A DNA stretch of 16,203 bases, taken from positions 1 through 16,203 of the forward strand of contig JAUWBH010000144.1 in assembly GCA_030605085.1 (NCBI GenBank), given 5' to 3'. A program made the position numbers and the translations under genes. This DNA comes from Promethearchaeota archaeon. Its GTDB lineage: Archaea > Asgardarchaeota > Lokiarchaeia > Sigynarchaeales > SOKP01. The first letter of the stretch is position 1, and each line of letters opens with the position of its first letter. Shown here in pieces: positions 10,326-15,981 of this stretch. The notes under the pieces are model-generated. The model worked only from the letters and a program-made list of their open reading frames with translations. It did not search any database and was not told where the DNA came from.

Positions 10326-10688
10326 TTGGCAATTTACGGTCAAAAAGAATTGGAGTTCTTAGAATCTATGAGAATAGTGGACATTCAGCAAAACTATTAC
10401 GAATCGCTCACTGCCGGGCTTTTTAGCTTGGACGAGGAGGTTTTGCCCGATCCGGTCCTCCGAATTTCTGACAATGTAGATCCTCTGTTCGACATGGGGT
10501 ACTTAGACTTAATCGCCGAGCATAACGAGACTTGCCTAATCTCAACCCTTACGCTGTTAAAAAAGAGGTTTTTTAAGTTAAATCTAATAGATTTAAATTA
10601 CTATAAAAACCAATTTATGAAAATTTATAAAGACACTCTTATAATTTATCTAACTGACAATTCAGAAATACAGGTGAAAATTTGCTAG
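10326..10688 (+). CDS. Unrecognised ORF of mixed composition
   Basis: This frame of 120 codons starts at TTG (10326); the frame is open further upstream but has no ATG. The first 75-80 codons are noticeably richer in G and C than the surroundings and read like a normal acidic protein (LFSLDEEVLPDPVLRISDNV). After about 10560 the sequence turns AT-rich and the protein turns Lys/Ile/Asn-rich (FFKLNLIDLNYYKNQFMKIY). This change inside one frame suggests that the end of an older gene was lost and replaced by a chance continuation. I recognise no domain. It precedes the CRISPR region and could mark its left junction. Confidence 0.4.
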   Translation: MAIYGQKELEFLESMRIVDIQQNYYESLTAGLFSLDEEVLPDPVLRISDNVDPLFDMGYLDLIAEHNETCLISTLTLLKKRFFKLNLIDLNYYKNQFMKIYKDTLIIYLTDNSEIQVKIC

Positions 10689-10760
10689 TAAAAAAAATTA
10701 AAGATTTAAAAATTATTAACTATAGCTGAAATTCTCACTTACTAATAACATTCAGATGTC

Positions 10761-10997
10761 TCACTTTTTAATTCCGTCCCAAAGTTCGATTAGATTTCCA
10801 TCTTCGTCGGTAAACCACCTATCTAGTTCTTCATTAGAAAGAATTATAGGTTTATCCTCAAACTTATCAATAAACTCTTTTAGATATGTAGAATCACAAG
10901 AAAGACACTTAATGTCATCACCCAGATCGATAGCTTCCTCTCTATTACATCGAGGGCATTTATACTTTTTTACTTTCTTTTTCAATTTTTTTCTCAA
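10761..10997 (-). CDS. Small zinc-ribbon protein in the array 1 trailer
   Basis: About 78 residues are encoded from a TTG at 10997. The frame stays open upstream to a TGA at 11045, inside the last CRISPR repeat, without an ATG; ATA codons are the other options. After a Lys-rich start come CPRC (14-17) and CLSC (31-34), a four-Cys zinc ribbon, then an acidic, Trp-containing C-terminal half with LSNEELDRWFTDEDG. Such small ribbons occur in archaeal transcription and recombination accessory proteins, but I cannot name a family. It lies on the crRNA strand directly after the oldest repeat of array 1, so array transcription would run into it. Confidence 0.55.
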   Translation of the reverse strand: MRKKLKKKVKKYKCPRCNREEAIDLGDDIKCLSCDSTYLKEFIDKFEDKPIILSNEELDRWFTDEDGNLIELWDGIKK

Positions 10998-11039
10998 TTT
11001 TTTTCTGAAAGCTTCCCAATGACCTATCTTTTCTTTTAT

Positions 11040-11671
11040 GTTTCAATCTTCTATTTGAAGCTATTTTTATTGTCACTAAAGTTGGCGATTCTTATCAAAT
11101 TGTAGCAGATAGGTAATTTCAATCTTCTATTTGAAGCTATTTTTATTGTCACAAATCTGTTTTTCAAAGTCAATTTCGGGAGCGATATTATTTCAATCTT
11201 CTATTTGAAGCTATTTTTATTGCTATACTGTCACTTATATTGCCTCTGATGGGAGTAATCTTGAATTTCAATCTTCTATTTGAAACTATTTTTATTGCTA
11301 TAAGAAAAAGATTTTGTAATAAATGTCTCGAAACCATAATTTCAATCTTCTATTTGAAGCTATATTTATTGCTATTTTAGAACCTAAAACGCATTATTGC
11401 GAATGTACACCATCAATCTTCTATTTGAAGCTATATTTATTGCTATCAGATAGCTCCCGGTGTGTCCACAGAGAGTGAGCTTCATTTCAATCTTCTATTT
11501 GAAGCTATACTTATTGCTATAGTAAGGAACTACGAGATAACTATGACAGTAAGACCTACATTTCAATCTTCTATTTGAAGCTATATTTATTGCTATTTAA
11601 AGGATCTACACTTAGAAGAGCGATTCTTTGAAACATTTCAATCTTCTATTTGAAGCTATATTTATTGCTAT
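11040..11671 (-). CRISPR. CRISPR array 1: 9 repeats, 8 spacers
   Basis: A 37-base repeat begins ATTTCAATC and ends ATTGTCAC or ATTGCTAT on the plus strand. With the A counted as its first base, copies start at 11040, 11116, 11190, 11265, 11339, 11410, 11484, 11560 and 11635. Spacers are 34-39 bases and less AT-rich than their surroundings. Read on the minus strand the repeat ends ATTGAAAT, the usual crRNA 5' handle form, and holds a CTTC/GAAG stem. The leader is on the right, so the newest spacers are at the right. The two oldest repeats end GTCAC, the other seven GCTAT; from the fifth on there is also a T-to-A change. The copy at 11410 has two changed bases near its left end. Confidence 0.97.
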
Positions 11672-11764
11672 CTTTATATAATAATAATATAAGATTAAAT
11701 ACTTTCATATTTATTTTTATCTTATTTAACAATCAGTCCTTTATAAATGAGACATACTTCCTTA
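11672..11764 (-). promoter_or_regulatory. Leader of array 1
   Basis: This AT-rich stretch abuts the newest repeat and is closely similar, over about 90 bases, to the sequence in the same position beside array 2. It contains TTTATAAA at 11740-11747, about 70 bases from the first repeat, which would start transcription leftward into the array. Next to the repeat is a TTATAT/ATATAA inverted repeat with a 7-base centre. Leaders direct new spacer insertion and pre-crRNA transcription. Confidence 0.8.
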
Positions 11765-12397
11765 AATCCTCTTTTTTTATTATTGTTTTTACTCTCAAGT
11801 AGAGTTTATGCCCTAAAAATCAATCTTATAGACTTAAATAAGTTCCATAACAATTCTACTGCAACTTAATATTTAACTTTTTCATTCGAGGATCTTAAAA
11901 AAAATACTCTATTTATAAATTATACTCGAAAAATTTGAATGTGAGGAAATTTTTTCGAAAGGGTTGTTCTTGCATTTTTTTTATGTTATTAGTATCTATC
12001 ATGTTTCTATTGCATCATTTTTAGATTTTTTAAGTATTAAGCAGAAATGAAATTTTAACATAAATTAGGCAATTTTGCACGATCAACTAGGGTATTTTTC
12101 ATATTTTTCGTTCTTTTCTTTTCAATTTTAAAATTTAAATACTGATTAGTATAATTTTTAAAAAAAATTTAGTGTGTTGCTCGAAACTATTTAAATACTT
12201 TAAATACTATTTTTATTGCCTGAAAATGAAATCAAAAGATTGATCTATTAGGAGCGTTTCGATCTTGAAATACGGGAAAAATTTGAATTTTTTTGAATAG
12301 TAATTTGAGCAAATAGACATAATATGATGCATAGTTAAATTTAATTGAAATTTGAAATCAGTAGAAAGATTTCCTTAAATTTCATAGAAAAGAACAA
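11765..12397. other. Non-coding AT-rich region before the CARF gene
   Basis: About 630 bases separate leader 1 from the CARF gene promoter. I find no open frame with protein-like composition on either strand and no RNA gene. It contains a 9-base tandem (TTAAATACT at 12191-12208) and many T runs. It may be a decayed remnant, or room for regulation of two divergent units. Confidence 0.5.
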
Positions 12398-12425
12398 ATA
12401 TTTATAAAATGTTGTAATTAACATT
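12398..12425 (+). promoter_or_regulatory. Promoter and palindrome before the CARF gene
   Basis: AATATTTATAAAA gives a TATA box near 12400-12407. Directly downstream is AATGTT-GTAATT-AACATT (12408-12425), a perfect 6-base inverted repeat around a 6-base centre. It falls where transcription would start, about 50 bases before the ATG. A site there could be an operator, perhaps for the encoded HTH protein itself. The TATA call is fair; the operator is inference. Confidence 0.45.
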
Positions 12426-12472
12426 ATTGTAAAATTGTCATATCAAGCAAAAGAAAAAAAAAAAATCAAAAG

Positions 12473-13303
12473 ATGAATAAGGATAATACTGAAAAAAACT
12501 CTTCTTTAATTCATATTGTATTTAATTGCAGAGAAGACCATCGAATTACCATGCCTATTATCAATATCCCAACAACCTATAAAATATACTATTTTACAGC
12601 ATATATCAAAAGTACCGGACAAAAAGACGAAAATATGGATTATTATCATCGAAATTGTGAATTTTTAAGAAATCAAATACCAAAAATTCAGATTATACAA
12701 AAAGAAATTGATTATACTGATTATATAGAAATTATTCAAGAAATTTCTAAAATTATTAAATCTGAAAGAAAACAAAATCCCAAATGCAAAATTATGATTA
12801 ATATCGGGACAGGTTCGAATATAACGGCATTGGCATCGACAGAGGCAACTAGATTATGGAACTGTGAACTATATTATGTATATTCAACAAAATATGATCC
12901 CTCAGTTAATGGTCCCAGACATAAAGGTGAAATGATTATAGTTTTCCCTCCTATATTTCCAATAATAAAACCAAATAAAATCCTTATCAAAACATTAAAA
13001 GTTATTAATGATGAAATAAAAAATAAATACATTGGTAAAGAATCTGAATTCTCCAGAAAGTTTCTTTATAAAAAGAAATTAATTGAAATCCTAATTGATA
13101 AAGGATTTTTAAAACTTAAGAAAAACCACAAAGACTTAAGATCTCGCCAATCAAGCTACTATATGAAAGTTAATAAAAGATTTCTTGAACCTTTAGCAAA
13201 TAAACTCGGATATATCAAAATCTCTGATGATAAAAGAAATAAAAAAATTACTATCACTAAAAAAGGTAAAATTATCCTTGAAATTTTTCGCTATTGGATC
13301 TAA
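12473..13303 (+). CDS. CARF-HTH transcriptional regulator
   Basis: The protein has 276 residues. Residues 12-145 match the CARF-type domain seen in archaeal DUF6293/HFX_2341 regulators and, more distantly, Csa3. They run HIVFNCREDHRITMPI, a variable middle, KEIDYTDYIEII, then the ligand-loop motif MINIGTGSNITALAS (108-122) and CELYYVYSTKYDPS. CARF domains bind cyclic oligoadenylates or related nucleotides; the ligand here is not known. Residues about 190-276 look like a winged helix-turn-helix, with a basic recognition region (KKNHKDLRSRQSSYYMK) and a wing (KKITITKKGK). No effector nuclease domain follows, so it is a regulator. It lies between two arrays with matching leaders, which makes arrays or distant cas genes its likely targets. 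It faces the arrays' direction of transcription. Confidence 0.8.
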   Translation: MNKDNTEKNSSLIHIVFNCREDHRITMPIINIPTTYKIYYFTAYIKSTGQKDENMDYYHRNCEFLRNQIPKIQIIQKEIDYTDYIEIIQEISKIIKSERKQNPKCKIMINIGTGSNITALASTEATRLWNCELYYVYSTKYDPSVNGPRHKGEMIIVFPPIFPIIKPNKILIKTLKVINDEIKNKYIGKESEFSRKFLYKKKLIEILIDKGFLKLKKNHKDLRSRQSSYYMKVNKRFLEPLANKLGYIKISDDKRNKKITITKKGKIILEIFRYWI

Positions 13304-13306
13304 AGG

Positions 13307-13347
13307 ATTCTTGATATTAATGATTAATATCAGAATTAATTTTTTTT
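13307..13347 (+). terminator. Hairpin and T-run terminator after the CARF gene
   Basis: Four bases after the CARF stop codon is a near-perfect inverted repeat, 13307-13336: ATTC, one bulged T, TGATATTAAT, a central G, ATTAATATCA, GAAT. A run of eight T follows at 13340-13347. This fits a transcription terminator for the plus strand. The hairpin itself works on both strands, so it may also stop leftward transcripts from array 2 before they enter the CARF gene. Confidence 0.7.
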
Positions 13348-13366
13348 AACCTTTATTATGAAATTA

Positions 13367-14360
13367 GCGCTAATCTTCTATTTGAAGCTATTTTTATTGT
13401 CACCTTTCTGCGGATGCGAAAACTCCTTGAAAGCCAATATATTTCAATCTTCTATTTGAAGATATTTTTATTGTCACGTGGAGGGATTGTTGTAACCACA
13501 TATCGCGCATTCCCATTTCAATCTTCTATTTGAAGCTATTTTTATTGTCACTTCCCAGCTTTTCGTCCCATCTCTCCAAGTTGGATAAATTTCAATCTTC
13601 TATTTGAAGCTATTTTTATTGTCACTTTTCCGTATTTCTTTCTTGTCTTATCTGCTCTGCCACAATTTCAAGCTATTTTTTTTGTCACATGGATTATACA
13701 ATGAATATAGATTGCTCCTAGAAGTATTTCAATCTTCTATTTGAGGCTATTTTTATTGTCACCTTTAGAGAGTGGAAAAGGATTGATAGATCTTTAGGAG
13801 AATTTCAATCTTCTATTTGAAGCTATTTTTATTGTCACGGAAGACTCCTAACCTTTATGCACACATATATCGTTACATTTCAATCTTCTATTTGAAGCTA
13901 TTTTTATTGTCACTTATTCTACATTTCAGATATTTATAAAAAACGGCTTTATTTCAATCTTCTATTTGAAGCTATATTTATTGCTATGAAATTCATAAGG
14001 AAAAAGGATACCCACCAAATATTTGATTTCAATCTTCTATTTGAAGCTATTTTTATTGTCACTTGATACGGCTTGGCATACTCTTTTCTTGTTAGATACA
14101 TTTCAATCTTCTATTTGAAGCTATTTTTATTGTCACGAGACGGGGAATATCTCGTAAGACAATTCTTAGATTCATTTCAATCTTCTATTTGAAGCTATTT
14201 TTATTGTCACTTAATACGGCTTGGCATACTCTTTTCTTGTTAGATATGTTTCAATCTTCTATTTGAAGCTATTCTTATTGTCACTTTATCCGTACAAGGT
14301 GCTGAGACATTCACATACCATATATTTCAATCTTCTATTTGAAGCTATTTTTATTGCTAT
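13367..14360 (-). CRISPR. CRISPR array 2: 14 repeats, 13 spacers
   Basis: The repeat is the same 37-base family as in array 1. Copies start at 13367 (first bases degenerate), 13441, 13515, 13589, 13665, 13726, 13802, 13877, 13951, 14026, 14100, 14174, 14248 and 14324. Spacers are 37-39 bases. Most repeats end GTCAC; those at 13951 and 14324 end GCTAT. The copy at 13665 lacks 13 internal bases. Two spacers, 14063-14099 and 14211-14247, are almost identical. The leader is on the right at 14361, so the array is read leftward and the degenerate left end is the oldest. Confidence 0.97.
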
Positions 14361-14453
14361 CCTTTATATAATAATAATTTAAGATTATACTTTCATATTT
14401 ATTTTTATCTAATTTAACAATCAATCCTTAATAAATAAAACATATTTCCTAAT
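14361..14453 (-). promoter_or_regulatory. Leader of array 2
   Basis: This matches the leader of array 1 closely over about 90 bases, starting with CTTTATATAATAATAAT beside the newest repeat, with one extra C. The TATA position reads TTAATAAA (14428-14435) rather than TTTATAAA, so its promoter may be weaker. The cas6 remnant ends a few bases beyond it. Confidence 0.8.
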
Positions 14454-14459
14454 TATTGA

Positions 14460-14891
14460 TTATTTCTTTAATAAATCCTTTTCTGTTAAATAACTTCTAT
14501 GATAATAGTGAATAACACCCATTCCTGCAGTTCGGTTTGCTCCAACATTAGTATATTCACCAAATCTGCATAAAATCTCCACCCAACGACAATTGCTCCC
14601 ATGATCTTGGTTAACTAATTTATAATCATATTTTCGATTCAATTGCTCTAAATAGTGTTTATAATAATTTTTATTAATCTTTGTAACTCGGTAAGAGGCA
14701 TTACCTAAACCCCCTACAACGAGCCTTGGCTTTCCAATGTTATGTCGTACACTCCTCATTTTATAACCGCTCACGTATACGTGAGAATTAACCCAAGCTA
14801 AAAAATTTTCACGGTCAATCTTGGTAATATTTTCATTAAGGGCATTCCATATATTTGAGAGATTACCAAAAATTATTTCTGGAATTGGTAG
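14460..14891 (-). pseudogene. cas6: 5'-truncated Cas6 (CRISPR RNA endonuclease)
   Basis: The frame is open from just after a TAA (14894-14892) to the stop at 14460, 143 codons. It reads LPIPEIIFGNLSNIW, then WVNSHVYVSGYKM, GGLGNASYRV and near the end CRFGEYTNVGANRTAGMGVI. This is the C-terminal half of Cas6, including the glycine-rich loop of the second RRM-like domain that holds the crRNA repeat. Cas6 cuts pre-crRNA within the repeat. The N-terminal half, where most Cas6 proteins carry the catalytic His, is absent, and no frame up to 15096 supplies it. A GTG at 14774 could start only 104 residues. The fragment lies just upstream of leader 2 and reads the same way as the array, a normal place for cas6. 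It is probably inactive. Confidence 0.8.
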
Positions 14892-14964
14892 TTACAAACG
14901 AAACAAAAAAAGTACAGTTTGGCGTGAAGGTGGAAATAATTACCAAAAATTATTTCTGGAATTG
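14862..14964. repeat. 26-base direct repeat at the broken cas6 end
   Basis: The 26 bases at 14862-14887, part of cas6, recur exactly at 14939-14964; both copies begin ATTACCAAAAATTATTTC. The offset is 77 bases, which is not a multiple of three, so the copies are in different frames. The copy nearer the cas6 body is in the coding frame; the outer copy is a stray. The repeat marks a rearrangement at the gene's broken end. Confidence 0.85.
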
Positions 14965-15096
14965 ATAGTAGTTTTTAAGGTTATTGTTGTGTTTTATGAA
15001 TTATATAATCGAATATTTTCTGAATAATTACTGAATGGTTATTCAATTGCCTAATAACTCTCTCATTTTTGTTGTAATTTCGCTACGGGGGAAAAA

Positions 15097-15939
15097 TTGG
15101 CGGGTGAGTGTGAATCGGAAATATATAAGTCGCTTGGATTACACTATGTTGAGCCGGAATTGAGGGAAAATAACGGCGAGATTAAGGCTGCGCAAAATGG
15201 AGCCTTAGCTTCGCTTATATCTGACGGAGACATCAAGGGAGACTTGCATTGTCACTCGCGTTGGACCGATGGGGCTGGTTCCATAGAACAAATGGCTGAA
15301 GCCGGTAAAAATCGAGGGTACGAATATTTGGCCATTACCGACCACGCAAAAGCCTTAAAAATATGTCGTGGGATCTCAGAGGACGACATTCGACGCCAAA
15401 TGCACGAGATTGAGCTTCTAAATCGAAAATTAGAGGATTTCACAGTCCTCATTGGCATCGAAGCAAACATAGACGCCCAAGGTCGATTAGATATCTCTTC
15501 CACGGTTCTGAAGGATCTCGACGTGGTTATAGCGTCCGTTCACTCGCACCTCTACCAACCGGAAAAAGTGTACACGGAACGAATATTAAACGCTCTACAT
15601 AACGATTATGTGCGCATATTGGGACACCCCACGGGTCGCGTTTTGTTGTATCGACCCTCATTACACATCAACTTACATCTTTTGTTTGAGACGGCGAAAA
15701 AATTGGGAATTGTTTTGGAGATTAACACGGACCCAGGCAGACAGGATTTGTCCGGTGCCAACTGCTTTCTCGGTCGGAAGTATGGGGCCTCTTTTTCAAT
15801 TGGAAGCGACGCACACTATCCAACGCATTTAGGTTTTTTACCGACCATGGGAGTGGCTACAGCACGGCGAGGATGGTTAGAAAAAAAAGACATAATTAAC
15901 AGTTTACGATTAAACGATTTATTAAAAAGATTAAGGTAA
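15097..15939 (+). CDS. polX: PHP domain of a PolX DNA polymerase, polymerase half missing
   Basis: About 280 residues match the C-terminal part of bacterial and archaeal family X DNA polymerases. They contain the linker ESEIYKSLGL and ELRENNGEI, then a full PHP domain from GDLHCHSRWTDG. All metal ligands expected of PHP are visible: His51, His53, Asp58, His83, Glu122, His149, His177, Asp238 and His240. In PolX this domain gives 3'-5' exonuclease and end-processing activity during base-excision repair. The helix-hairpin-helix and nucleotidyltransferase halves, about 300 residues, are absent; family-like sequence fades out near 15076 and a stop lies at 15055. The TTG at 15097 follows GGGGG by 5 bases, so a lone PHP protein may be made. 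The gene is clearly richer in G and C than the CRISPR region beside it. Confidence 0.8.
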   Translation: MAGECESEIYKSLGLHYVEPELRENNGEIKAAQNGALASLISDGDIKGDLHCHSRWTDGAGSIEQMAEAGKNRGYEYLAITDHAKALKICRGISEDDIRRQMHEIELLNRKLEDFTVLIGIEANIDAQGRLDISSTVLKDLDVVIASVHSHLYQPEKVYTERILNALHNDYVRILGHPTGRVLLYRPSLHINLHLLFETAKKLGIVLEINTDPGRQDLSGANCFLGRKYGASFSIGSDAHYPTHLGFLPTMGVATARRGWLEKKDIINSLRLNDLLKRLR

Positions 15940-15981
15940 CTCAATCTTTGTAATATCAAACTCAATCTTTGTAATATCAAA
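15940..15981. repeat. Two perfect 21-base tandem copies after polX
   Basis: CTCAATCTTTGTAATATCAA plus one A is repeated twice without change, starting at the base after the polX stop codon. It is too short to name; replication slippage is the simplest origin. Confidence 0.9.

Follow-up and report, generated by a model that had tools for sequence, protein, structure and literature searches.

Near-identical spacers in one CRISPR array invite the reading that a virus escaped recognition and was then recorded again. Two such spacers lie in the 16.2-kb stretch of DNA analysed here (the window), and we asked whether they record two captures of a diverging target or two copies of a single spacer. 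The repeats offer an internal control: if those surrounding the spacers drift too, the spacer differences need no viral origin. The window is lokiarchaeal, and a 663-aa protein encoded in it is 81% identical to proteins of Lokiarchaeota LW60_4 and AMARA_1S.

Two arrays and a near-identical spacer pair

The window harbours 22 full-length repeats of 37 nt in two CRISPR arrays, both on the minus strand: array 1 (11040-11671) with 9 repeats, and array 2 (13367-14360) with 13 full-length repeats and a decayed partial repeat near 13664. The direct repeats are regular and the spacers unique and of similar length, as in a genuine CRISPR array; 18 of the 20 inter-repeat gaps measure 37-39 nt, one measures 34 nt, and one, in array 2, measures 100 nt and holds the partial repeat. 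The repeat reads GTGACAATAAAAATAGCTTCAAATAGAAGATTGAAAT in crRNA sense, and a second form starts with ATAGC. The repeat at 11410-11446 has altered last bases and a 34-nt spacer, which reflects either imprecise integration or a small deletion.

The two arrays have their right-hand flank in common (91 bases in array 1 vs. 89 in array 2), an AT-rich leader of approximately 90 bases at 11672-11762 for array 1 and 14362-14450 for array 2 (minus strand in both cases). This flank is weakly similar to the sequence immediately upstream of two arrays in the related genome G113 (about 75% over 59 bases, E ~3e-4). The shared leader at the right indicates that the crRNAs are read from the minus strand and that the right end of each array is the younger one. 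No Rfam match was obtained for positions 10700-15100.

Spacer A (14063-14099, the older position) and spacer B (14211-14247, nearer the leader) are both 37 nt long and lie on the minus strand. The repeat and spacer coordinates bear out the claim of an earlier note on this DNA that the two agree at 35 of 37 positions and have the same boundaries. The differences are at the third and last plus-strand bases, as that note had described: G at 14065 in A vs. A at 14213 in B, and C at 14099 vs. T at 14247. The note was also right that the last plus-strand base is the first spacer base of the crRNA, since the crRNAs are read from the minus strand; in crRNA sense, position 1 is G in A and A in B, and position 35 is C in A and T in B. 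The adjoining repeat base differs as well, as noted earlier (plus-strand A at 14100 beside A, G at 14248 beside B); read in crRNA sense, this is the last base of the repeat that precedes the spacer, T in the case of A and C in that of B. The note's description of B as the newer copy agrees with its position, which is the younger one because the leader is on the right.

The alignment score of A and B is 34, whereas no other spacer pair in the window exceeds 12. Three dinucleotide-type shuffles of the 681-spacer survey described below gave no within-genome same-strand pair at a score of at least 18, so the likeness of A and B is not due to chance. The arrangement is that of a single, non-adjacent copy with one other spacer in between. 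Both differences are within 3 nt of a spacer end, which would happen by chance in 2.3% of cases (a post hoc estimate). We also looked for the signature expected from an evolving target, namely synonymous changes confined to one codon phase. None of the differences that could be scored in the two open frames of A/B is synonymous (one frame scores just one difference), and the differences do not fall in one codon phase; with only two differences, this negative result is weak.

Drift, probable exchange and breakage at the locus

Seven private substitutions were counted across 20 repeats, two repeats with broken ends being excluded. The leader-side repeat of B (14248-14284) carries two of them, at repeat columns 11 and 37, and is therefore changed at 2 of 37 bases, the same amount as the spacer. 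The trailer-side repeat of B (14174-14210) and both flanking repeats of A (leader side, 14100-14136; trailer side, 14026-14062) have the consensus sequence, all on the minus strand, and the flanks of A and B have no rare marker in common. The measured repeat rate predicts 0.7 differences between two drifting spacer copies and a probability of 0.12 for exactly two, P(2); if the rate is taken from the repeat beside B, P(2) is 0.27, and across three ways of setting the rate it ranges from 0.11 to 0.27. Drift as seen in the repeats can thus give the difference between A and B.

Repeat forms are also mixed. A late array-1 form (13951-13987, minus strand) lies inside array 2 between neighbours of the GTGAC form, and the leader-proximal repeat of array 2 (14324-14360, minus strand) has the ATAGC form while the next repeat differs. 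Such an order is hard to obtain by copying the leader-proximal repeat one acquisition after another, and the array-1-type repeats at 13951 and 14324 therefore suggest that array 2 is likely a mosaic produced by exchange between the arrays. We also considered whether the last repeat base is imported together with the spacer, in which case it would count as a third target difference. This idea was rejected for most arrays because the base is constant per array or changes in long runs. The exceptions are arrays L059 and L061 of genome G123, in which the base alternates repeatedly between T and C, and the window, which has two single C.

The genes around the arrays are partly broken. A gene for a CARF and winged-helix protein (HFX_2341-like; 12473-13303, plus strand) lies between arrays 1 and 2; its relative in G113 is the CARF gene next to Cas6 in that genome's type I-D locus. 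The cas6 remnant (14460-14891, minus strand) encodes only the C-terminal half, matching residues 147-289 of the 289 residues of the G123 Cas6. A PolX fragment (15097-15939, plus strand) faces the cas6 break; it also lacks its N-terminal half and matches residues 292-569 of the 575 of a solved PolX. The two broken ends, at about 14891 and 15097, thus face each other, and the simplest reading is that a deletion or rearrangement took out the intervening DNA, possibly with the cas operon. A 31-bp stretch occurs twice near the break (14862-14892 and 14939-14969), and an exact 21-bp tandem repeat is present at the end of the PolX fragment (15938-15979). A 120-aa open frame with locally higher GC (10326-10688) had no match in PADLOC or NCBIfam.

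When the Cas and CARF proteins of the I-D locus of G113 and the III-D locus of G123 (15 proteins) were compared with the window, only CARF and Cas6 matched; in tblastn with the G113 Cas proteins, the matches were CARF and the C-terminal half of Cas6 only. The CRISPR system that serves these arrays may be encoded elsewhere in the genome. In the complete G113 locus, the related CARF gene neighbours a Cas6 gene of 299 aa and the genes of a type I-D set (Cas3d, Cas5d, Cas7d, Cas11d and Cas10d, with Cas4 further on). It resembles the window in its 37-nt repeat family, leader, CARF gene and Cas6, but the window retains just the CARF gene and half of Cas6, and the two repeats differ in the 5' half and the loop. 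By the same repeat family we mean a common core around AGCTTC...GAAGATTGAAA, which is present at no more than 2 mismatches in 5 of the 17 genomes behind the related loci; the first 20 bases of the window repeat (its 5' half) did not occur in any of 222 genomes of the phylum when up to 1 mismatch was allowed. G113 would fit a type I-D assignment of the window, yet G123 shares the repeat family and carries an operon of III-D type on a contig that also holds one of its arrays.

The effector type bears on the escape reading of the earlier note, which placed the first crRNA base of the spacer in the region most sensitive to mismatch in type I systems and suggested that B came from an escape variant. 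The first statement stands for type I in general, where PMC10212523 gives the seed as the first 8-10 nt except position 6; it does not stand for type I-D, in whose Cascade position 1 is described in an I-D review as flipped out and tolerant of mismatches. The change at position 1 would then be a poor escape mutation if type I-D applies here, an assignment that comes from the related G113 locus and not from cas genes of the window. This weakens the suggestion of an escape variant, and the second change, at crRNA position 35, lies towards the opposite end of the spacer.

Spacer pairs in related lokiarchaea and the search for a target

We surveyed 681 spacers of 28-48 nt from 43 arrays of 18 genomes, including the window, at a score threshold of at least 18. 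The arrays are a subset of those from class members with a GATTGAAA-type double pattern (28 of 83 genomes), and other repeat families are unrepresented. The parser was stricter than in a preceding pass, which used 709 of 713 spacers, the four spacers of two spurious arrays having been left out. The threshold was reached by 27 pairs: 19 identical over the compared stretch, five diverged on the same strand, two on opposite strands, and the window pair. Three of the identical pairs were assigned an offset of 1 through a parsing slip. The opposite-strand overlaps, both with offset 9, are at L054 (G115, spacers 51/81) and L062 (G124, spacers 16/60).

All five diverged same-strand pairs have offset 0 (two in G009, two in G011 and one in G124). 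The parser overlooked one more diverged pair with a common start, in G123; it was added by hand and then verified, which gives six such pairs over four related genomes (loci L038, L039, L060, L061 and L062). These six differ at 5-12 compared positions, none at 2, and apart from the window pair no pair in the survey differs at 1-4 positions; copies in the relatives are identical or strongly diverged. Identical copies are in tandem in G011 and G115, form a block of four in G124, and are single and non-adjacent in G100, G118 and G123. One spacer is common to G013 and G110, the only pair at threshold among 204,605 between-genome pairs.

The coding content of two diverged pairs points to their source. 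In G011 (pair 28/40), five nucleotide changes give one amino-acid change in one frame; in G123, six nucleotide changes give no amino-acid change in one frame. Both pairs are likely captures of homologous coding sequence. In three of the relatives, the repeats hardly change: none of 70 in the G011 array, two single changes in 19 in G009, and changes at one column only among 106 in G124. The divergence of the spacers in G011, G009 and G124 is therefore not array drift, and the control that allows drift in the window points here to real recapture of diverged targets with one fixed start. Recapture of one protospacer start from diverged targets thus does happen in lokiarchaeal relatives. This result is more interesting than the window pair itself, and it bears on how narrowly these archaea choose protospacers.

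Copying of units also occurs in this repeat family. In G123, one spacer occurs in two exact, non-adjacent copies, and each is followed by a repeat of the GTCAC form, which is rare there (3 of the 44 repeats of the stretch); one of these two repeats has since changed at one base. The shared rare repeat indicates that the unit was copied by recombination.

The earlier note had pointed to viral and metagenomic data as the place to find both versions of the protospacer, and neither version turned up in the collections searched, which comprised viral, phage, plasmid and genome sequences. No protospacer was obtained in viral contigs with the exact 33-mer and 23-mer of the common core of A and B, in genome contigs with the 23-mer, in 227 genomes of the phylum with the 35-base A/B pattern at no more than 3 mismatches, or with three degenerate patterns derived from the spacer frames. 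Phages gave six records with partial matches of 17-25 bases to spacer A, none above 80% of the query, and plasmids gave none for spacer B. Half-spacer patterns in viral contigs retrieved 11 loci, the best with 25 of 37 positions matching, and no protospacer among them. The two loci at 25/37 (L083 and L084), which have a 19-nt stretch in common, were treated as chance matches.

Origin of the pair and comparison with known systems

We put the chance at about even that A and B arose by copying followed by drift in a decaying array. They would be two copies of one spacer: a repeat-spacer unit would have been copied within array 2, or imported from a sister array, by recombination between repeats, and the copies would then have diverged by ordinary mutation in a decaying CRISPR locus that may have lost its own cas genes. 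The repeat substitutions and breaks, the truncated cas6 and the mixed repeat forms are plain in the window. Because the repeat adjoining B carries as many changes as the spacer, recombinational copying and subsequent drift would suffice; the drifting array and the lack of a scored synonymous difference in the two open frames also favour this reading. The copying event, its direction and timing, and the loss of the cas operon are our reconstruction. Several observations argue against it. A single non-adjacent copy needs more than a simple tandem duplication, slightly drifted copies are not common in the survey, and drift does not explain why both changes are near spacer ends, a pattern noted post hoc. 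Moreover, the repeats flanking A and B have no rare marker in common that would trace the copying directly; those of A are consensus and so could mark nothing.

A somewhat less probable origin is independent recapture, as the earlier note read the pair: one protospacer would have been taken twice, each time from a different variant of a diverging mobile element, with its start fixed by the flanking motif and with or without escape. The six same-start diverged pairs of the relatives, two of them nearly or fully synonymous in one frame, show what it would look like, in G009, G011 and G124 with repeats that vary too little for array drift; B is also nearer the leader than A, as expected of a later capture. 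On the other hand, repeat drift in the window is enough for two differences, these fall in unlike codon phases and are non-synonymous where scored (few as they are), the collections searched yielded no protospacer, and the recaptures of the relatives are all more diverged. With two differences, the window pair falls between the exact copies (0) and the recaptures (5-12). If the effector is of type I-D, neither difference would be a good escape change, which counts against the version with escape. An artefact is improbable: strain variants or reads of similar units might have been joined in a short-read metagenome assembly, for which the array periodicity of about 74 bases and the mixed repeat forms would favour chimeric joins, or the consensus might contain base errors. 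The window is presumably a metagenome contig. The array around B is regular, however, the spacers to either side of B occur only once, and four changes in a single unit are more than base errors would readily produce.

A broader proposal is that lokiarchaeal arrays of this repeat family resample one protospacer start as the target diverges, with A/B as the youngest case; we consider it rather unlikely. In a variant of this proposal, kept as an idea only because it is post hoc and n = 2, the changes in B would stem from DNA damage in a recaptured fragment and not from virus evolution. Both differences would be C-to-T changes, arising on single-stranded 3' overhangs of the prespacer, and crRNA positions 1 and 35 both lie no more than 6 nt from the 3' end of the respective strand.

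Published cases resemble the pair in part. Among 805 duplication candidates, PMC11472070 lists 695 duplications, 8 reacquisitions and 7 independent insertions, and on these figures duplication is favoured in general. Duplication by repeat misalignment, as described there, likewise gives the same spacer twice per array; by contrast, the window copies are non-adjacent and differ at two bases. A precedent for nearly identical spacers within an archaeal genome exists in Methanomassiliicoccus intestinalis, whose sp59 and sp63 differ by one mismatch and one extra nucleotide (PMC6336856). Other spacers of that organism match smacoviruses, whereas the window array is decaying and has no target among the collections searched. 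The open-access literature searched gave no report of same-start recapture in Asgard arrays. The acquisitions of Sulfolobus islandicus (PMC2946923) include similar spacer pairs with up to 4 SNPs, comparable to A and B in this respect, but they come from coexisting strains and 37 of 41 are offset, while A and B sit in a single array and share both boundaries. As reported there, independent captures are thus mostly not same-start, which argues against recapture as the origin of A and B and contrasts with the diverged same-strand pairs of lokiarchaea, all of which have the same start.
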